A stretch of DNA of 64,000 nucleotides from a virus: positions 1 through 64,000 of IMG/VR virus record IMGVR_UViG_3300049491_000350. One strand, 5' to 3'. Below the pieces are notes generated by a model that had not been told where the DNA came from, did no database searches, and saw only the letters and a program-made list of their open reading frames with translations. Numbering within the stretch: the stretch's first letter is position 1; every line of letters begins with the position of its first letter. The translations under genes were made by a program, and so were the position numbers. Shown one piece after another: positions 12,203-25,415 of this stretch.

Positions 12203-12985
12203 ATGTTTTTTGAACAGAAAGATATAGAAACCTTTAATCTTGACTACTTTTTCAACTCGGCGTATTCTAAATCCTCTGATGAACTCAAGAGGCTCATCCC
12301 TATTGAGTTGCAGCGTAAAATATCCTTGCATAAAAAAGACCCATCAAGGGGATTGAAGCCTATTGAAAAGGTTCAAATCCTTACTGTGTGTTTAGGGTAT
12401 CAGTTCTTTAATGTATTTGCTAAGGATGAAGGTGTTACCCCGGAGGTATTTTCTGCCATTTCAAAGGCACAGGCTGGCAAGATAACCAACAGTGAGGCAC
12501 TGAAAGCTCTGGATAAGGAAGATGTGTTTATTGTGGGTAGCGCAGTGCTGGCAAAGTATTTTAACTATGGGTCTCATATCCAGTGTTCAAAGATTCATAC
12601 CCTGATACAAGATTACAAAGTAACGAAGGGTATGCACGGCAGGGGAGGCAAGGGCAAGATGTCTGCGTTGCGTGGTATTGTTGAATTTGTTTTTGCCTAC
12701 AACAGGCGGATTGACCTGATACTGAAAAGGCGCAACCTGACCCCAAGCGATTTTAATTTCCTGACGTACATATACGATGGCGAACACACGGCGGCAGACT
12801 TCCATAGCAATGTTATGACAGGGTACGCAAAGGGTTCTATCCATCTAAGGAAAGCGGTTTACAAAATGGTCAAGAAAGGGCTGGTAGAGGTGAGGGGTCA
12901 GCAGAAGAAAAAGCAGTACAGGATAAGCCAGAATGGAACAACGACAGTGAATAGCATCATGGATGAAGTAATGCAACATATATAA
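12203..12985 (+). CDS. Winged-helix (MarR-like) DNA-binding protein
   Basis: A 260-aa protein. The N-terminal ~150 residues are helical and unrecognised. The C-terminal ~90 residues read as a winged helix of MarR style: NLTPSDFNFLTYIYD, then HLRKAVYKMVKKGLVEVRG (recognition helix) and a wing QQKKKQYRIS. The intergenic DNA just downstream carries a strong palindrome and a repeated half-site (13005-13042), which could be its operator. Probable transcription regulator. Placement midway through the accessory block does not reveal its targets. Confidence 0.65.
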   Translation: MFFEQKDIETFNLDYFFNSAYSKSSDELKRLIPIELQRKISLHKKDPSRGLKPIEKVQILTVCLGYQFFNVFAKDEGVTPEVFSAISKAQAGKITNSEALKALDKEDVFIVGSAVLAKYFNYGSHIQCSKIHTLIQDYKVTKGMHGRGGKGKMSALRGIVEFVFAYNRRIDLILKRRNLTPSDFNFLTYIYDGEHTAADFHSNVMTGYAKGSIHLRKAVYKMVKKGLVEVRGQQKKKQYRISQNGTTTVNSIMDEVMQHI

Positions 12986-13004
12986 AAAATAAATATAGGT
13001 TTCC

Positions 13005-13042
13005 CGTGGAACGTTCCATGCTGAAACCGTTATTCGTGGAAC
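13005..13042. promoter_or_regulatory. Palindromic operator candidate
   Basis: TGGAACGTTCCA at 13007-13018 is a perfect 12-bp palindrome. The half-site CGTGGAAC occurs at 13005-13012 and again at 13035-13042, exactly 30 bp apart (about three helical turns), the second abutting an ATG at 13043. It directly follows the winged-helix gene, which suggests a binding site for that protein. No clear promoter box is associated. Confidence 0.5.
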
Positions 13043-13261
13043 ATGAAGAAAAAGAATTGGCATAGGAAACCTTACAGGTGGTACGGGTACAGGTCATTTA
13101 GGATTGACAGCTACTCTCCGTGCATTTGGGGCAAAGGCAGGAGCGGCCTATTTATGTACTTTCTTCGGAAGCCACCTATCAAATCAATGACACGAATTTT
13201 GAAGTTAAGAAAAGCATTAACCAAAAAGCAATATGGCAAACAAAAATCAAATACAGCTTAA
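13043..13261 (+). CDS. Hypothetical basic protein (frame uncertain)
   Basis: A 72-aa basic, aromatic-rich frame (RKPYRWYGYRSFRID near the N-terminus). The first half uses AGG arginine and GGC glycine codons, as neighbours do. The second half looks less natural, and a different frame from ~13130 to 13341 gives a plausible beta-rich sequence (PIYVLSSEATYQIND). The true gene may be this one, the other, or a frameshifted fusion. Confidence is limited. Confidence 0.4.
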   Translation: MKKKNWHRKPYRWYGYRSFRIDSYSPCIWGKGRSGLFMYFLRKPPIKSMTRILKLRKALTKKQYGKQKSNTA

Positions 13262-13415
13262 CGCTCATTACAAGCCCTTGCTTGACCTATTACAGAACAA
13301 GCATGGCATTTGCCCGTCTATGCTTGAGATGGACGAAATAATAGACACTGTGGAGCTTGTGAGCGCAAGTTTAAAGGAGTTGGTACAGATGCCTGTTAAA
13401 AAATCGGCAGAATGA
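13233..13415 (+). CDS. Hypothetical small helical protein
   Basis: A 60-aa helical protein (LLDLLQNKHG, then MDEIIDTVELVSASLKELV). It overlaps the upstream frame by 29 nt and the next gene by 4 nt (ATGA at 13412), so it is part of a tightly packed operon. Function unknown. Confidence 0.6.
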   Translation: MANKNQIQLNAHYKPLLDLLQNKHGICPSMLEMDEIIDTVELVSASLKELVQMPVKKSAE

Positions 13416-13702
13416 TAAGCAAAGACGATATAAAAAACATGGTGCTGGTGGAAGGGATACCTGTATTCGTCAACATGGACACCTTGAAGGAATGCTTTGG
13501 GTTTAAAAGGGTGGATGGCTTGGCCTTTTCTATTTCCAAGCTGATAAAGCCCAGCCTGACGGAGAGGGAAGCATCAACCCTTTCAAAGCCAGAGCTTATT
13601 GAGGCAGTTGAATCATGGTGCAAATCGAATGGAATTTTGTACCAGTATCAGCAGGACAGGGATGCTTATATTTTAGGGAGGCCAAAAACAGATAACGATT
13701 AA
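13412..13702 (+). CDS. Hypothetical protein
   Basis: A 96-aa protein whose ATG overlaps the previous stop as ATGA. It has a helix-rich middle (LKECFGFKRVDGLAFS, then TLSKPELIEAVESWCKS) that could be a small DNA-binding fold, but no motif is decisive. The stop codon begins a degenerate palindrome (TAAAATAATTTAA, 13700-13712). Confidence 0.6.
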   Translation: MISKDDIKNMVLVEGIPVFVNMDTLKECFGFKRVDGLAFSISKLIKPSLTEREASTLSKPELIEAVESWCKSNGILYQYQQDRDAYILGRPKTDND

Positions 13703-13714
13703 AATAATTTAAAC

Positions 13715-13975
13715 ATGGACGGGAAACAACTTTATCTAAAGCCTGATGAAATGAAATTTCTATCAATGGCTGTAATGTCAATGCTTGAACAAATAAAGCA
13801 AACACAGAAAAACGAAAAAATAAATTGGAGCGTAGAATCAAGAAAGATGCACAAGGAGATGGCTACTGCTGGCGATGGGCTTGTAGTTAAGATGACAAAG
13901 CTGGGTTTCGATATGAGGCCGCTACCTCCATACATTGACGGTGAAGAACAGGACTGGCTAACAAAAGAATCTTAA
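13715..13975 (+). CDS. Hypothetical protein
   Basis: An 86-aa mostly helical protein (MKFLSMAVMSMLEQIKQTQ near residues 13-31) with an acidic C-terminus. It lies in the small-gene operon, 12 nt after the previous gene. No family recognised. Confidence 0.6.
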   Translation: MDGKQLYLKPDEMKFLSMAVMSMLEQIKQTQKNEKINWSVESRKMHKEMATAGDGLVVKMTKLGFDMRPLPPYIDGEEQDWLTKES

Positions 13976-13978
13976 TAG

Positions 13979-14008
13979 TTCTGGGCGGACTTATAAAACC
14001 CAATAATT
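13979..14008 (+). promoter_or_regulatory. Repeated 30-nt leader element, copy 1
   Basis: The leader before the 14011 start begins TTCTGGGCGGAC and ends AAACCCAATAATT. A second copy at 16897-16926 matches 27 of 30 bases and also precedes a gene. TGGG can pair with CCCA to form a small hairpin enclosing the middle. Likely a translation or transcription control element in the leader mRNA. Confidence 0.55.
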
Positions 14009-14010
14009 TT

Positions 14011-14244
14011 ATGCAACAAATACAAACTTCAACCATCATCAAGCTGGACTTAATAGATTCCATAAAGGTTCTGCTTGGCAGGTGCATCAAGGTTGACATC
14101 AAGACGGACATACATCAGGAGCAAGAGATTGGTCATTATAACGCTTCGGCAAATGTGTCTATCGAAAAGACAACAACCCACTTTATTAAGCAGGACAAAC
14201 CAAGATTCGGATGGGCTGAAAGAGGGGAATTATCTCAAAAGTAA
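14011..14244 (+). CDS. Hypothetical protein with repeated-leader element
   Basis: A 77-aa protein with a beta/alpha N-terminus (STIIKLDLIDSIKVLLGR) and a polar C-terminus. It is preceded by the shared 30-nt leader at 13979-14008, and its stop codon is the start of a TAAAATATTTTA palindrome. Function unknown. Confidence 0.55.
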   Translation: MQQIQTSTIIKLDLIDSIKVLLGRCIKVDIKTDIHQEQEIGHYNASANVSIEKTTTHFIKQDKPRFGWAERGELSQK

Positions 14245-14253
14245 AATATTTTA
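14242..14253. repeat. TAAAATATTTTA palindrome
   Basis: Fused to the preceding stop codon and 5 nt before the ATG at 14259. Confidence 0.85.
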
Positions 14254-14258
14254 CACCC

Positions 14259-14693
14259 ATGAGTTTCACATCAATAATCGTTTTAGCAAACGCTATCATT
14301 TTAATTTCTTTTTTTCTTCTGCACAGATGGATTGTAAAAAGAAAAACAAAAAATACAATATGCCTTCCGTTTGATAGCTACACTGAATTAGCAAGCCTGC
14401 TACACGACTGCAAGGTTAAAGTCAGGGAACTTGAGCTTAACCCTATAAGGGATTTACAGAAAGCGCATATAGATAAAACAAGAAATGCTGTGCTACTGTA
14501 TAACAAGAAGCATGAGGTGGCTGAATGTTTATCAGTTGACGACCTAATGAAATTCACTTACATAGCAGATGGCCACAGGTTAAGGTATATGTATGTCAAC
14601 TTTATTGTTGATATAGAGGACATCGCAAGCGTAAGTGAATATTTAAAACTAATTCAGGTGTGCAAGTATATGCTTGACCTAAACAACAGGTAA
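14259..14693 (+). CDS. Membrane-anchored hypothetical protein
   Basis: A 144-aa protein with one N-terminal transmembrane helix (~4-24), a basic stop-transfer KRKTK, and a cytoplasmic helical domain (~40-144) containing paired charged helices. No family recognised. Located beside another membrane protein gene (14716), suggesting a joint envelope function. Confidence 0.6.
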   Translation: MSFTSIIVLANAIILISFFLLHRWIVKRKTKNTICLPFDSYTELASLLHDCKVKVRELELNPIRDLQKAHIDKTRNAVLLYNKKHEVAECLSVDDLMKFTYIADGHRLRYMYVNFIVDIEDIASVSEYLKLIQVCKYMLDLNNR

Positions 14694-14715
14694 CTTAACC
14701 AGTAAAATTGATTAA

Positions 14716-15231
14716 ATGAAAATGATAGTATTTGCCCTGTTCTCTGTATCTGGCCTTGCAATAGGAAGGATTATAGACGTGTACGGCCTTATTGAAACAA
14801 AAACACCAAATGACGTAGCGATGGTGTATGTTATCCCCTTGATAATAACTCTGATTATATCCTTTGTATTAATGCTTAGGCTTGTTCCTAAAGCTACTGA
14901 CGAGTTTAATGACGAGATAGCGTTATTAGGGCAGACGAATCGTTTTGCAGGAGAATACCAAAGCTACGAATCAAGGATTGGAGAAAAGGTTGCTATGTAC
15001 GGAGCATTGTATATAAAAGATAGCGTCCATTCTTCAAGAGAACACGGCATGGAAGAATACTTTCTTTTGGTGTGTACTAACAAGGGTGATATATGGCATA
15101 AGTCGCCAGTAAATCTTGAGGGCAAATTCGGTAGTCAAAGTGAATGGAGCAACCGAAAGTTAAAAGATATACAAAGGTTCTTGAGAGATGACTTTATTGA
15201 ATCAACTACTATTCCCGTTTTTAAACAATAA
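14716..15231 (+). CDS. Two-helix membrane protein with soluble C-terminal domain
   Basis: A 171-aa protein with hydrophobic helices at ~3-20 and ~36-55, then a soluble domain of ~115 residues with no known motif. Its stop codon (15229-15231) lies within the first bases of the terminal stem of the structured RNA that follows, so translation termination could affect folding of that RNA. Confidence 0.6.
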   Translation: MKMIVFALFSVSGLAIGRIIDVYGLIETKTPNDVAMVYVIPLIITLIISFVLMLRLVPKATDEFNDEIALLGQTNRFAGEYQSYESRIGEKVAMYGALYIKDSVHSSREHGMEEYFLLVCTNKGDIWHKSPVNLEGKFGSQSEWSNRKLKDIQRFLRDDFIESTTIPVFKQ

Positions 15232-15382
15232 CCGTTTGCGATGTGGGTGTCCGAAAGGAATATATAGATAAGATTTACGCCACTAACTGACGTAGTGGAA
15301 TCTGGGGCGATGCCATCCGAGACACAGGGAACAGGACGGCCAAAGCAGCTAAGTAAATCCTCGCCACATTGCAACGGTTTTT
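15230..15382 (+). ncRNA. Unidentified structured RNA in a gene-free gap
   Basis: The gap between 15231 and 15396 has no convincing gene but strong pairing. Its two ends form a 16-bp stem with one bulged base and one G-U pair: AACCGT/TGCGATGTGG (15230-15246) with CCACATTGCA/ACGGTT (15364-15379), followed by a short U-run. Inside, CCACTA/TAGTGG (280-298 of 15xxx) is a perfect 6-bp hairpin extended by AGATT/AATCT (15271-15275 with 15299-15303). GTGTC (15247-15251) can pair with GACAC (15321-15325), and GATTTAC (15272-15278) with GTAAATC (15353-15359), allowing alternative or pseudoknotted folds. I could not match it to a known class. Confidence 0.65.
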
Positions 15383-15395
15383 AAAACAGAGCCAA

Positions 15396-15809
15396 ATGAC
15401 TATAAAAGAACTTCTTGAGTACGCTGCTAAAAATGAGGTAGTGTACGTTCAATTGGAAACCAAATTAAAATTCGCAAGTTCTACCAAAGGCATTGTAGGC
15501 TGCATCAGGATAAGGGAAGGAGGTGTTACAGGGTGTGGCGTAATGTTTGAAGGTACTAATTGGGAGACATGGTTTCATGCTAAGGACGACAAGGATAAGA
15601 GAAGCAGGTATATGAGCCAGCTTAGTTTCTTTGTTAACGAACATGCTGCATGGTGGAACGGGCTGACAGACCCTCAAAGGGAAAAGGTTAAAGCGGCGTA
15701 CCATAGTGAGTATCAGTTTAAGGTAATAAGAGACCTATCTGATGACGAGATAAAACTGGTTTACTCAAAGAGAGATTTCTATGATACCATTTACAATTGT
15801 TTCAACTAA
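15396..15809 (+). CDS. Hypothetical protein
   Basis: A 137-aa protein. I start it at the ATG at 15396; an upstream TTG at 15369 lies inside the structured RNA stem and is rejected. The middle is rich in Trp and Gly (GVMFEGTNWETWFHAKDD), and the C-terminus ends in an aromatic YDTIYNCFN. No family recognised. Confidence 0.6.
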   Translation: MTIKELLEYAAKNEVVYVQLETKLKFASSTKGIVGCIRIREGGVTGCGVMFEGTNWETWFHAKDDKDKRSRYMSQLSFFVNEHAAWWNGLTDPQREKVKAAYHSEYQFKVIRDLSDDEIKLVYSKRDFYDTIYNCFN

Positions 15810-15819
15810 TAGAATAAAA

Positions 15820-16494
15820 ATGGAAGATAAGTATTACATAGTAAGTATCAAGCACACATCAAAAGGAGACAATGCGATAACGCTTTGGAGAGCGGATTCG
15901 TCCGGGTATTGCTTTAGAAAAGATTGGGCTGGCCTATACACAAAAAGCCAAATTGGTTTTATTGATATGAGGGAGACTGAAAATGTTGCAATATTGGCAT
16001 CTTCCGCAGACAAGTTGTTTGCGTCCGCTCTTTATGATGGGCAGGATATTGAGTGCCTTGAAAATTCAGAATCCGTAAGAGAGGCATTTAATCTGAACTA
16101 TGACAAGATGAAACAAAAGAGGATGGCTACCATCAATGTCTCGTATTACCACAAAGGCTCATCATTAAACAAGCAAAGTGATGACGAAGAAGAAAGCCGC
16201 ATTAAAAAAAAGATTGAATCAACGCTCGATGGCGTAGAAATAAAATGGAATTATCGCAGGTGTGGCAATACAACAAGGCAAGTGGATAGAGCGGTTCAAA
16301 TATTGTTTAGTGGGTCTATATGCAAAGTGAGAGACCATCACAGGATGGGCGAAGATACAAGGATGAATATGCGATTGGCTGACTTGATATTGAGGCGGAT
16401 GAACAATGAGGGGCATTTAGGAGGATTGGCTACAATAGGAGAACGTGTGTTGCTGAACAAGCAAAACATGACCCTTGAAATTTGCCGTAAATAA
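15820..16494 (+). CDS. Two-part hypothetical protein
   Basis: A 224-aa protein starting at the ATG at 15820, after the previous stop. The N-terminal ~50 residues (YYIVSIKHTSKGDNAITLWR, then GYC and WAGLYTKSQI) form a compact unit of a type seen in other Bacteroidota phage proteins of unknown function. The C-terminal ~110 residues are basic and helical. A charged linker joins the two. Function unknown. Confidence 0.6.
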   Translation: MEDKYYIVSIKHTSKGDNAITLWRADSSGYCFRKDWAGLYTKSQIGFIDMRETENVAILASSADKLFASALYDGQDIECLENSESVREAFNLNYDKMKQKRMATINVSYYHKGSSLNKQSDDEEESRIKKKIESTLDGVEIKWNYRRCGNTTRQVDRAVQILFSGSICKVRDHHRMGEDTRMNMRLADLILRRMNNEGHLGGLATIGERVLLNKQNMTLEICRK

Positions 16495-16500
16495 AAGAAG

Positions 16501-16512
16501 TAAAATATTTTA
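16501..16512. repeat. TAAAATATTTTA palindrome
   Basis: Located 6 nt after the previous stop and only 2 nt before the ATG at 16515. Confidence 0.85.
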
Positions 16513-16514
16513 AA

Positions 16515-16850
16515 ATGAAACATACGCTACTATCAATCGTTTTACTTTTCGCCTTGACGGCAAATGCCCAACAAGCAACCAAAGAAAAAGTGCCAGAGTT
16601 GAATCCGCTTATTTGGCATACGGTGTGGGAATGGAAGCCTATCAGATGGGCTGACTTTCCGCCAACTTCCAACAGGCCTATTTATTGGTATAATGATAGT
16701 ACCTGCGGAGGCAATGTTGTTTTTTCAAATTTAACGCTGGCGGATTTCTTTACACAACAGCCAGTTGTGATAAGAAATGATTCATGTACGTGCGACACTA
16801 AATTCAGGTGTGAAATGGGTGCGCCGTATGGGAAATGTATTTACCAGTAA
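16515..16850 (+). CDS. Exported protein with Sec signal peptide
   Basis: A 111-aa protein. The first 19 residues are a signal peptide (MKHTLLSIVLLFALTANA then QQ). The mature part has Trp-rich segments (LIWHTVWEWKPIRW) and cysteines near its C-terminus (SCTCDTKFRC) that could form disulfides. It should act in the periplasm or outer envelope. No family recognised. Confidence 0.6.
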   Translation: MKHTLLSIVLLFALTANAQQATKEKVPELNPLIWHTVWEWKPIRWADFPPTSNRPIYWYNDSTCGGNVVFSNLTLADFFTQQPVVIRNDSCTCDTKFRCEMGAPYGKCIYQ

Positions 16851-16896
16851 AGCAGTAACTTTACTTGCTATTTTTTTAATTTCAAAATAAAAAAAC

Positions 16897-16926
16897 TTCT
16901 GGGCGGAGTTATTAAACCCAACAATT
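16897..16926 (+). promoter_or_regulatory. Repeated 30-nt leader element, copy 2
   Basis: Starts TTCTGGGCGGAG and ends AAACCCAACAATT; 27 of 30 bases match the copy at 13979-14008. It lies 6 nt before the 16933 start codon, compared with 2 nt in copy 1. Confidence 0.55.
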
Positions 16927-16932
16927 ACATTT

Positions 16933-17823
16933 ATGAATAAGCAGTTAATCGAGTTTCTTAACAAGCTCAATGCTTTTGATGCAATTGACGCTGTTAAGTT
17001 TCACATGCTAAAAAAAGGCATATCCATTCTGCAACAAGGCAAGACAGCGAAAGATGCCTTTTCTTTTGTTGAGACCCTGCACAGGGATGGCCATTACAAC
17101 AACATCATGGGTATGTACACCGAAAGGCAATTGATTGGTTTCGGCAATTATCTTCTTTCTCCTGAAAGAGATGCGAAATTTGACACAATGGATAAAAGCC
17201 TTCCGATTGATGACATGAAGAATGTTGTGCAGTTTGCTGACCTTAAACACTGGAAGTTCCCATTGTCTGATGTATCTGGTGATGATTTCAAAACGGCAGT
17301 AGAACAGGAGGAAGGTGCTGCAATTGAAAAAGGGAAAGTGATTGGTGAAGAAAAGATGGCTGAAAAAATAAATGAAAAGGCGGAAGAAAAAATTCAACAG
17401 CAGCAGGAGAAACAGGAGCAGCAGCAGGAAAAGCAACAGGAAGAAAAGCTGGATGATAAAGCAAATGAAAAGGCTGAACAGCAGGAAGAAAAACAGGAAC
17501 AGGTTGAAGAAAAGCAGGAGCAAATTGGGGAACAACAGCAGGAAGAAAAACAGGAGGAGAAAGCAGAAGAAAAAACTGAACAGCCATTGGAAGTGATTGA
17601 TGAAAAGGCTGATGAAAAAGCGGATGAGAAAGCGGATGAGAAAATTGAAGGCACTGATACTAAGCAGGAAGAAAAAGCAGAAGAATTGGGCAACCAGCAT
17701 GAAGAAAAGCTGGATGACAAAGCGAATGAAAAGGCTGAACAGCAGGAAGAAAAACCTAAGCCACACAGAAGGAGTGCTGCCGCTAAGAAGGCTGATGAAA
17801 AGAAGGAAGAAAACAAAGATTAA
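16933..17823 (+). CDS. Acidic Glu/Lys/Gln repeat protein
   Basis: A 296-aa protein. Residues 1-120 are an ordinary helical domain; the rest is a highly charged Glu/Gln/Lys repeat region (KQEEK, DEKADEKADEK), likely extended helix or coiled coil. A 55-bp segment at 17440-17494 recurs at 17701-17755 with two mismatches, encoding KLDDKANEKAEQQEEK. The C-terminus is basic. It lies between the accessory block and the packaging genes and is followed by a terminator. The role is unknown; a structural spacer or nucleic-acid mimic is possible but unproven. Confidence 0.65.
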   Translation: MNKQLIEFLNKLNAFDAIDAVKFHMLKKGISILQQGKTAKDAFSFVETLHRDGHYNNIMGMYTERQLIGFGNYLLSPERDAKFDTMDKSLPIDDMKNVVQFADLKHWKFPLSDVSGDDFKTAVEQEEGAAIEKGKVIGEEKMAEKINEKAEEKIQQQQEKQEQQQEKQQEEKLDDKANEKAEQQEEKQEQVEEKQEQIGEQQQEEKQEEKAEEKTEQPLEVIDEKADEKADEKADEKIEGTDTKQEEKAEELGNQHEEKLDDKANEKAEQQEEKPKPHRRSAAAKKADEKKEENKD

Positions 17824-17849
17824 ATGTGCTGATTGCGCCTATAACGGAG

Positions 17850-17907
17850 GGGCGTAATTGGTTTTAATTATGCCCTCTGTCAAGATTTATTGGCAGAGGG
17901 CTTTTTT
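17850..17907 (+). terminator. Intrinsic terminator with competing upstream hairpin
   Basis: Terminator hairpin GCCCTCTG (17872-17879) with CAGAGGGC (17894-17901) is followed by six T. A second 10-bp hairpin, GGGCGTAATT (17850-17859) with AATTATGCCC (17866-17875), uses the same GCCC, so the two cannot form together. This is the layout of an attenuator. It ends the accessory operon or gates transcription into the packaging genes. Confidence 0.8.
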
Positions 17908-17913
17908 AAGTTT

Positions 17914-18378
17914 ATGAAGTACAAACAAAAAGAGGCTTATGGTTGCGGATTGTATGCGGTAGCAAACGCTTGCAATTTAAACGATTTCGTAACAGATGAC
18001 AGGCTTGAGAAAAGCAAGGCTGGCTTATTGATAGGCCAGCTATCAAAGTGGATGCAGGATGACGGGAAAGCTATCTATATAGATACGCTTTATTACAATC
18101 ATGCAGGCAAGAAGCTCCCGTACTCCGCCTTGCATTATAAGCCAGTAGGCGAAAATGTTTTATTTTTACCTATATTGATAAATGTAAGGTTTTCTGACGC
18201 AGGTAAAAACCATTTGATTGGCGGCAAGATTGACAAAGAAGGAAAATTGTATTTGTATGACAGCTTAAAGGATGACGTTGTAGAGACAACCCTTTCAAAA
18301 GTAAATACAATGTATCATAATGTTTACGGGCTGTTTGTATTCATGTGCCTTGAGACAGGCGGCTACGTTTTTATTTAA
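17914..18378 (+). CDS. Papain-like (C39-type) cysteine peptidase candidate
   Basis: A 154-aa protein. The N-terminus Q5-(5 residues)-C11 in QKEAYGCGLYAVANAC matches the oxyanion Gln and nucleophile Cys of papain-fold peptidases. H100 in KNHLIGG and D116 in YLYDSLKD follow at the spacing of the C39 family. The length fits a minimal catalytic domain. I chose the ATG at 17914; a TTG at 17890 lies in the terminator hairpin. It sits two genes before the terminase, so prohead processing or attack on host proteins are both possible. The call is by motif geometry only. Confidence 0.55.
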   Translation: MKYKQKEAYGCGLYAVANACNLNDFVTDDRLEKSKAGLLIGQLSKWMQDDGKAIYIDTLYYNHAGKKLPYSALHYKPVGENVLFLPILINVRFSDAGKNHLIGGKIDKEGKLYLYDSLKDDVVETTLSKVNTMYHNVYGLFVFMCLETGGYVFI

Positions 18379-18394
18379 CTATTAAAAAACTTTT

Positions 18395-18745
18395 ATGTCT
18401 AAGTTTAAAAAAGGAGACAAGGTAATTTGCGTTCACGACCATAATGACGTAAAGCAAGGCGATGTCCTTGAAGTGATAGTTCCTTCCACCAATTGCTGCA
18501 ATGGCATTATTTTCAAGGACAGGAATTACCACTACCCACAAGAATGCTTTGAATATTATAAAGAATCCGACAAGCCAAGCGGAGCTTTCCTTATTGACGA
18601 GCAGGGCATCATGGAAACCTTATTAGAAGTTGAACGTAAAATATTTTACAATCAGGTTCAAGGAGTGATACCAGTTGATATTGTAAAGTCGCAACTGTTT
18701 AAGATAATTAAGGCTTTAGGTTTACAAGAAAAAATGATACCCTAA
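18395..18745 (+). CDS. Hypothetical protein upstream of TerL
   Basis: A 116-aa protein. Residues 1-55 look like an SH3-type small barrel (KKGDKVICVHDHNDVKQGDV); the rest is helical. A TAAAATATTTTA palindrome is embedded in frame (18637-18648, coding KIFY). It ends 2 nt before TerL, the usual place of a small terminase subunit, but the sequence does not show a clear TerS helix-turn-helix. Confidence 0.5.
   Translation: MSKFKKGDKVICVHDHNDVKQGDVLEVIVPSTNCCNGIIFKDRNYHYPQECFEYYKESDKPSGAFLIDEQGIMETLLEVERKIFYNQVQGVIPVDIVKSQLFKIIKALGLQEKMIP
18637..18648. repeat. TAAAATATTTTA palindrome (in coding sequence)
   Basis: Inside the gene before TerL, 99 nt upstream of the TerL start; encodes part of RKIFY. 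Confidence 0.8.
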
Positions 18746-18747
18746 GA

Positions 18748-20766
18748 ATGGCTACTCAAAAGATAGAATTAATGGGTGGCAAATGGAATGATGTTCCATA
18801 TATATTTGAGACCCCATCAGTACCAACTGACGAAAAGAAAATATACAACTTCGACAAGAAACGGAAAGACCAGATATGGTCTATCCCTGACGACATAAAA
18901 AGATTCAGGGAGATGTCTGTCGGGGAGAAGAAATTATTTGTTGAGCAGGAGAGGGAGAGATGGATAAATGGATTCTGGTTATTCATTGACGGAGAGCCTA
19001 CCTACATAACAGGTATGCACTATGACCATCTGGTGTACCAGACGTTTGAATTTGGCAAGGCTGATTATCTTGATAGCCAGAGGCACGATTTCTATTTCAG
19101 GGATTATTGCAGGAGGGATAAATATTCATACGGTGAGTTATGGATGAAGCCGAGGCGTTACGGGATGACTGCGGAGGAGATAACCGAGAATCAATATATA
19201 GCACTATCTGCGGAGAACATGCAGGTTGGGCTTGTGTCTAATGAAAACAAAAAGACAATTGATTCTATTTTCAGACCAATCGTTGATTCGTACATCAAGC
19301 GGCCTAAGTATATCAGGGCAAGGATATACATGCCTAATGGCAAGAAGCCCAGAAAGGAAATGTTGTTTCAGGGGAACGTGATTAAAAACTACGATTCCGA
19401 TGACCTGTACATGGATACAAATGGCGACCTTAATGGATGGATAATACCGAAGGCTACCACAGTTACAGCGTTTGATGCGATGAAACTGCATAAGCTAACT
19501 GCTGATGAAGTTTGGAAATGGATTATATGTAACCCAGAGGAGTTCTGGGGCGCACACAAGAAGTGCCTTGAAGATGGTGGGCGCATCATAGGCAAAGCAT
19601 CTTTCCTGTCAACAATGGGCGATAGCGATGACTACGCTGATGCTATTGAGGCAGGTGTACGCATGTGGCACGGCAGCGACCCGTCAGAAAGGGATGCCAA
19701 CGGAAGGACAAAGACTGGATTGTACAGGTACTTTATTGATGCTATATATTCCCTCCGGGAGTTCAAGAATGAATTTGGCAAAATAAATATTGACCAAGCT
19801 GAAACATTCCTTGAGAATGAGTTTGCTAAACTCGACCCTAACAGCAAAGAGTATGTGTTTGAGAAAAGGCGTATGCCGAGGAAGCCTGATGACGCTTTGA
19901 TGGGCGCAGATGTTTCAAAAATATTTGACAACCCACGCATACCAAAAAGGCTTGAGATTATAAAGAAGTTATCGCCTGCTGATAAGCCTTATGTATTTGG
20001 CAATTGCAACGAATTGAATAATGGCAGGGTAGAATGGGAGCCGACCCCAAAGGGTATTTGGAAAATGGCTACACTTCCAATGATGGACGCTGTTAGGAAA
20101 ATAGATGCCAGCAACAGGTATAAAAAAATAGGTGAGCTATTCTTCAAGCCAGTTAACCCGGAAGGCTGTGGCGGATACGATTCAATAAACTTTGCTGACG
20201 TTGATACAACCTCTGGCAACAAGTCAAGGGCTGCTGCAATATTCAGGCAGAAGTTTGATTACTATGGAAATGGAGGAGCTAACAGGTATGTATCATTAAT
20301 GGTGCAACGTCCTGATGAGCCAGACGATGCTCATTACGAAGTAATAAAAATGTGCAGGTTTTTGGGATACCCTGTAATGATAGACCGTGCTGCATTGACT
20401 GGAATCAAAAAGAAGTTCAAGGAGCATGGCATGGGCGACTTTCTTATGAAGAACCCGAAGGATGGAATCATGGGCATGTGGGCGGACAACCAAAAGCGTT
20501 TCACTAAGGATGGTGTAAATAAAGTGTACGGGTACTTTAAGAACCCACAAAGCGAACATGACTTTGATGCGATAGAAGAACAGCCTTTTGAAGAACTGTT
20601 TGAAGATATGATTCCATTTAAAATACACAAGACAACAAAGTTTGACGTTGCTATGGCCGACATATTGCTTGAGTATGGAATGGAGCAGATAATAGAAACA
20701 TCGCTTCGTGATTCTGCCGCAAGCGGCATTTATAAAAACAACCCTTTGTTTGGCAAGCGGAATTAA
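18748..20766 (+). CDS. terL: Terminase large subunit (TerL)
   Basis: A 672-aa packaging motor. The ATPase domain carries a deviant Walker A, KPRRYGMT at 134-141, with Met where Lys is usual and an Arg supplying the charge, as in several phage TerL groups. The C-terminal RNase H-like nuclease begins at ADVDTTSG (483-490, D484 and D486 as metal ligands), with later acidic ligands near D647. It cuts concatemeric DNA and pumps it through the portal. Length is typical for Bacteroidota podoviruses. The portal follows after the two co-chaperonin genes. Confidence 0.85.
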   Translation: MATQKIELMGGKWNDVPYIFETPSVPTDEKKIYNFDKKRKDQIWSIPDDIKRFREMSVGEKKLFVEQERERWINGFWLFIDGEPTYITGMHYDHLVYQTFEFGKADYLDSQRHDFYFRDYCRRDKYSYGELWMKPRRYGMTAEEITENQYIALSAENMQVGLVSNENKKTIDSIFRPIVDSYIKRPKYIRARIYMPNGKKPRKEMLFQGNVIKNYDSDDLYMDTNGDLNGWIIPKATTVTAFDAMKLHKLTADEVWKWIICNPEEFWGAHKKCLEDGGRIIGKASFLSTMGDSDDYADAIEAGVRMWHGSDPSERDANGRTKTGLYRYFIDAIYSLREFKNEFGKINIDQAETFLENEFAKLDPNSKEYVFEKRRMPRKPDDALMGADVSKIFDNPRIPKRLEIIKKLSPADKPYVFGNCNELNNGRVEWEPTPKGIWKMATLPMMDAVRKIDASNRYKKIGELFFKPVNPEGCGGYDSINFADVDTTSGNKSRAAAIFRQKFDYYGNGGANRYVSLMVQRPDEPDDAHYEVIKMCRFLGYPVMIDRAALTGIKKKFKEHGMGDFLMKNPKDGIMGMWADNQKRFTKDGVNKVYGYFKNPQSEHDFDAIEEQPFEELFEDMIPFKIHKTTKFDVAMADILLEYGMEQIIETSLRDSAASGIYKNNPLFGKRN

Positions 20767-25390: not shown

Positions 25391-25402
25391 TAAAATATTT
25401 TA
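25391..25402. repeat. TAAAATATTTTA palindrome
   Basis: Lies in the divergent gap between the minus-strand pair and the scaffold candidate, 13 nt before the 25416 start. Being symmetric, it could serve both directions. Confidence 0.85.
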
Positions 25403-25415
25403 AAACGGAGAAACT

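Follow-up and report, generated by a model that had tools for sequence, protein, structure and literature searches.

An intergenic gap with complementary ends

The window, the 64-kb stretch analyzed here, is part of an 82,750-base IMG/VR virus record. It contains a 164-nt gap (15232-15395) between two orphan genes (Table 1), with a GC content of 48% compared to 41% for the genome, and all neighboring genes lie on the + strand. Stops interrupt all three forward frames of the gap, which is thus non-coding, in line with the gene-free gap of about 160 nt described in the initial annotation of this DNA; a conserved protein spanning the gap, which that annotation had named beforehand as evidence against an RNA, is not there. 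Its suggestion that the upstream gene encodes a membrane protein is plausible given two N-terminal hydrophobic helices in a low-confidence structure model (pLDDT 52), but the protein has no family match. Neither of the two neighboring proteins matched an NCBIfam model or a relevant padloc model. The helix that closes the gap, P1, has a 5' arm that starts inside the TAA that ends the upstream gene and a 3' arm that continues into TTTTT, so both the stop-codon overlap and the U-run first noted at this locus are present.

The terminase and portal share ~20-24% identity with their counterparts in Flavobacterium elemo phages, Cellulophaga phi38:1-like phages, and Tenacibaculum phage Gundel_1. Judged by its sequence, the source phage is an uncultivated, Bacteroidota-type podovirus and a distant kin of the phi38:1, Gundel, and elemo phages. 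Its sole near relative in IMG/VR is IMGVR_UViG_3300045391_004554, with a terminase that is 42% and a capsid that is 53% identical. A terminase alignment search returned 80 loci with just this one near relative, a capsid alignment recovered it alone and had no match in bacterial genomes, and single-sequence queries with the flanking proteins and terminase found zero relatives. The gap lies in a 5.8-kb island (12985-18748) whose genes all lack counterparts in the near relative; the matching interval there is 2.5 kb of tightly packed reading frames, and the gap is absent. By this comparison, the RNA candidate sits within a fast-changing accessory island.

This variable island of small orphan genes runs from a conserved regulator-like gene (12203-12985) to the gene for the large terminase (18748-20766). 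One of the orphan proteins (17914-18378) begins with CGLYAVANACN, which by eye recalls papain-like or C39-type cysteine peptidases, and has no family match. Another protein (16933-17823) carries a long E/K/Q-rich low-complexity tail with repeated EEK and EKAEE-like units.

Table 1. Positions in the window of the genes, helices, and sequence signals discussed in the text.
Feature	Position	Strand	Remarks
Upstream orphan gene	14716-15231	+	171 aa; N-terminal hydrophobic helices
Stop codon TAA of upstream gene	15229-15231	+	overlaps first bases of closing helix P1
P1 5' arm AACCGUUUGCGAUGUGG	15230-15246	+	U15237 bulged; fold and chance test
P1 3' arm CCACAUUGCAACGGUU	15364-15379	+	fold and chance test
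Small hairpin GUGUCC-GAAA-GGAAUAU with bulge	15247-15263	+	predicted fold
P2 5' arm GAUUUAC	15272-15278	+	overlaps alternative arm AGAUU (15271-15275)
P2 3' arm GUAAAUC	15353-15359	+	predicted fold
P3 perfect hairpin CCACUA-ACUGACG-UAGUGG	15280-15298	+	predicted fold
P3 extension AGAUU/AAUCU	15271-15275 with 15299-15303	+	costs P2
P4 hairpin GCCAUCC/GGACGGC	15312-15340	+	A-C mismatch (G-U on - strand); 15-nt purine-rich loop
Leader TTTTTAAAACAGAGCCAA	15378-15395	+	directly before next ATG; like leader 25396-25415
Downstream orphan gene	15396-15809	+	137 aa; matches no family; uninformative structure model (pLDDT 38)
TAAAATATTTTA copies, part 1	1794, 4124, 7047, 9676, 14242, 16501, 20764, 21866, 25391		listed positions
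TAAAATATTTTA copies, part 2	29739, 33740, 35259, 43094, 45438, 55038, 57028, 59168, others		listed positions

The closing helix lies beyond chance

The initial annotation reported that the ends of the gap form 16 bp, and we find the same helix: P1 pairs 15230-15236 with 15373-15379 and 15238-15246 with 15364-15372, with one bulged U (U15237) and one wobble (G15240-U15370). Its score of 34.5 exceeded the best from 3000 dinucleotide shuffles (28.5) and the best from 4000 randomly chosen genome positions (30.0), whereas nine other gaps scored for end-pairing gave 11-18. In a mismatch-tolerant scan of the window for 100-200-nt helices, P1 ranked only ~11th; what is unusual is thus its placement at the very ends of the gap. 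We conclude that the closing helix lies beyond chance.

The interior helices, observed as complementarity, are predicted to form a branched interior of a small hairpin, P2, P3, and P4 (Table 1). P3 is the perfect inner hairpin of the initial annotation. The five extra pairs said to extend it are also present, but they compete with P2: the P2 form is predicted at -46.9 kcal/mol versus -44.2 kcal/mol for the extended-P3 form, making P2 better by 2.7 kcal/mol, with pair probabilities of 0.95 for P2 and 0.03 for the AGAUU/AAUCU alternative. The two inner helices are mutually exclusive, which makes a switch possible but, with the alternative fold at ~3%, not evident; the candidate pseudoknot is a possible pairing of GUGUC (15247-15251) with GACAC (15321-15325), suggested purely by their complementarity.

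The complete fold is only modestly stable. Its energy gave a z-score of -2.34 (4/200) against dinucleotide shuffles and -1.58 in a GC-corrected genome scan, in which 434 of 8260 windows were equally or more extreme, and so is not strongly distinct from chance. The two strands fold with nearly equal energies (-47.5 for + and -45.5 for -), and an A-C mismatch, which is a G-U pair on the opposite strand, disrupts one helix on each, P4 on the + strand and P1 on the - strand. The + strand assignment therefore rests on gene direction. Predicted co-transcriptional folding has P2, P3, P4, and part of P1 in place with ~140 nt out, and the full P1 only after synthesis of its 3' arm.

Transcription context

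Neither the gap nor the sequence just before it contains a Bacteroidota-type promoter (TTTG-N17-23-TAnnTTTG), and the palindrome that recurs in this phage, TAAAATATTTTA, has zero copies in the gap. No + strand intrinsic terminator, with a GC-rich stem, a short loop, and a T-run after it, was reported in the gap; the scan of the - strand gave one match, 15294-15276, in a set near chance (10 found, 7.5 expected). With no clear promoter or terminator in the gap and all neighbors on the + strand, the gap is expected to be part of an operon mRNA.

The U-run that follows P1 has counterparts in front of other genes. A T-run lies within 30 nt of the gene start at 7 of 52 starts, compared to a 3% background, and the T-run leaders of this phage include TTTTAAAAC at 25396 and TTTTACAA elsewhere. 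The TTTTTAAAACAGAGCCAA-ATG after P1 resembles the TTTTAAAACGGAGAAACT-ATG leader at 25396, with the T-run followed in both by AAAAC. The clear terminators of this genome, by contrast, are short-loop hairpins with T-runs, for example at 17872-17901. Thus, the U-run is more likely a leader than a terminator.

Searches for relatives

The initial annotation had recognized no known RNA class, and Rfam 15 was likewise empty at the gathering cut-off, with 0 matches across the 64-kb window; relaxing the threshold to E 10 around the gap gave just two chance matches, far below the cut-off. Homologous intergenic regions, which the annotation had proposed to collect, were not found in the collections searched. 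By blastn, phages and plasmids had only chance-level similarity to the gap.

We also searched with a covariance model, which was built from a single sequence, is weak for distant relatives, and had the window itself as its only positive control. Overall it was run on some 250 loci and in roughly 1,150 Bacteroidota genome searches, the latter in three partly overlapping draws of 396, 378, and 371 genomes. It found only the self-match in ~1 Mb of related phage loci plus the whole of IMGVR_UViG_3300045391_004554, only weak matches (E 0.3-0.9 per genome) in the first Bacteroidota draw, nothing at E 0.05 in the other two, and nothing credible in loci fetched by pattern. Three of the weak Bacteroidota matches (L331, L332, and L334) were rejected as relatives, each lying inside a protein gene, and one further match that looked alike by eye (L379, E 4.3) falls within phage protein-coding frames. 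Pattern searches of IMG/VR gave one match to GAGACACAGGGAACAGG, which falls in an apparent portal gene, no similar RNA among the matches listed for CCAAAGCAGCTAAG, and no similar RNA for GGCGATGCC-N-GGCCAAAGC. The alignment used for pair counts reduces to a single distinct sequence, uninformative on covariation. As far as these searches reach, the candidate is an orphan that belongs broadly with phage intergenic structured RNAs and to no named family.

Comparison with known RNAs

The phi29-like packaging RNA (RF00044) is a phage RNA of similar size, with its 5' and 3' ends in a long helix and a branched interior; copies of it pair through their loops to build a ring on the portal. The candidate shares the paired ends, the size, and a location upstream of packaging genes, with the terminase 3.4 kb downstream. 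However, the phage here belongs to another group and encodes a large terminase of its own, and the RF00044 model found nothing in the record at E 10, in a search whose positive control did not respond; the gathering scan was also empty.

Like intercistronic cis-regulatory RNAs and riboswitches, the candidate lies directly before a gene and has mutually exclusive helices, P2 and extended P3. Unlike these, it has no Rfam match at gathering or relaxed thresholds, no ligand gene context, and an alternative fold populated at only ~3%. Retron msr-msd RNAs are also non-coding with complementary ends, but a retron was rejected, as the 82.75-kb record contains no reverse transcriptase (RVT_1) in a search whose controls responded. 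ToxI-like RNAs of type III toxin-antitoxin systems resemble the candidate as short RNAs before a small gene; the candidate, in contrast, has no repeats, and its downstream protein has no family match. A search for the ToxN family found no match, but the control genomes were also silent. Finally, an HDV-like ribozyme topology was considered and rejected: AGAU/AUCU would give the right helix order but only 4 bp, and no ribozyme model matched.

A candidate cis-acting segment and its alternatives

From its sequence a structured RNA at this locus is plausible, and we favor an orphan structured segment of the operon mRNA that acts in cis between the two genes, with a probability of roughly 0.45. The terminating ribosome of the upstream gene would occupy the 5' arm of P1 during translation. 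On its departure, P1 would close and 15230-15379 would fold into one compact domain (P1, P2, P3, and P4) whose end lies 16 nt short of the downstream start codon. Such a domain may insulate the upstream from the downstream gene by limiting read-through or re-initiating ribosomes, so that output of the downstream gene would be set separately, and it may protect or mark an RNA end. Transcription of the gap, folding in the cell, and the effect in cis are all steps that we infer. In favor of this reading are the closing helix, which coincides with the gap ends at a level beyond chance, the non-coding and GC-richer sequence of the gap, its expected place in an operon mRNA, and the predicted order of co-transcriptional folding. 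An island with no counterpart in the nearest relative fits an accessory element; the modest fold energy, the lack of a homolog, and the almost equal folding of the two strands count against this reading.

We rank this cis-acting segment as most likely, followed by a neutral repeat, a free small RNA, a DNA-level repeat, and a terminator; these readings overlap, and the weights we give them are not meant to total exactly one. The neutral reading, in which P1 is a chance inverted repeat in a gap that gene turnover left behind within the variable island, is consistent with a whole-fold energy near the genome background, a nearest relative without the element, and a feature picked by eye from 64 kb. 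We nevertheless consider it unlikely, as P1 sits precisely at the gap ends, a placement unmatched in the shuffles and random genome places.

Next in order, and improbable, is a free-standing ~150-nt phage small RNA, made from its own promoter or cut from the operon transcript, that would target host or phage mRNAs in trans or work within a ribonucleoprotein. One helix locks both ends of the candidate and coincides with the gap, the usual shape of a stable processed RNA, and its loops are purine-rich and unpaired. Yet such an RNA would have to be reconciled with a gap that offers no Bacteroidota-type promoter in or just before it, no TAAAATATTTTA copy, no convincing terminator, and no homolog.

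More doubtful still is a feature of the DNA, either a small MITE-like insert bounded by imperfect terminal inverted repeats of 16-17 bp or a site for protein binding or recombination. The complementary ends are inverted repeats in DNA too, and the similar flanks GTTTTTAAACA and GTTTTTAAAACA can be read as a target duplication, but these flanks include a T/A-rich leader widespread in this genome, and the element is single-copy there. Matches to the end-repeat pattern in bacterial genomes were scattered, and among those listed none had paired ends at a short distance or formed a similar short element.

A transcription terminator or attenuator, akin to the terminating riboregulator of the initial annotation, is very improbable: the U-run does lie directly 3' of the P1 stem, but that stem would enclose ~118 nt, whereas clear terminators here are short-looped, and T-runs before an ATG are general in this phage.

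That the candidate founds a new class of compact ~150-nt phage RNA, with a 16-bp terminal helix and a switchable P2/extended P3, carried as an accessory in Bacteroidota podoviruses, is in our view unlikely. With one sequence and zero relatives it stands as a candidate only; should it prove real, a little-studied group of phages would gain an orphan RNA class, and the accessory islands of such phages would carry regulatory RNAs besides orphan proteins.

A recurrent palindrome and other strong folds

The 12-base palindrome TAAAATATTTTA occurs in 28 copies in the 82.75-kb record, most of them lying 0-40 nt ahead of a gene start and often overlapping the stop codon of the preceding gene (Table 1). 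Its core, AAATATTTTA, has 32 copies versus 0.4 expected from mononucleotide shuffles. In IMGVR_UViG_3300045391_004554, TAAAATATTTTA is present in 14 copies, likewise enriched upstream of starts. The palindrome may be a promoter, operator, or translation-start element, and on these counts its comparative support is better than that of the RNA candidate.

Two other regions stand out for predicted folding. An intergenic gap of 28% GC at 253-440 holds three copies of the short repeat TATGCAGGTGCATAGC and variants, and is among the strongest folds of the genome for its GC. Allowing for GC content, the most stable fold anywhere in the record lies at about record positions 65241-65495, with an MFE of -72.9 for 155 nt and a z-score of -4.6.
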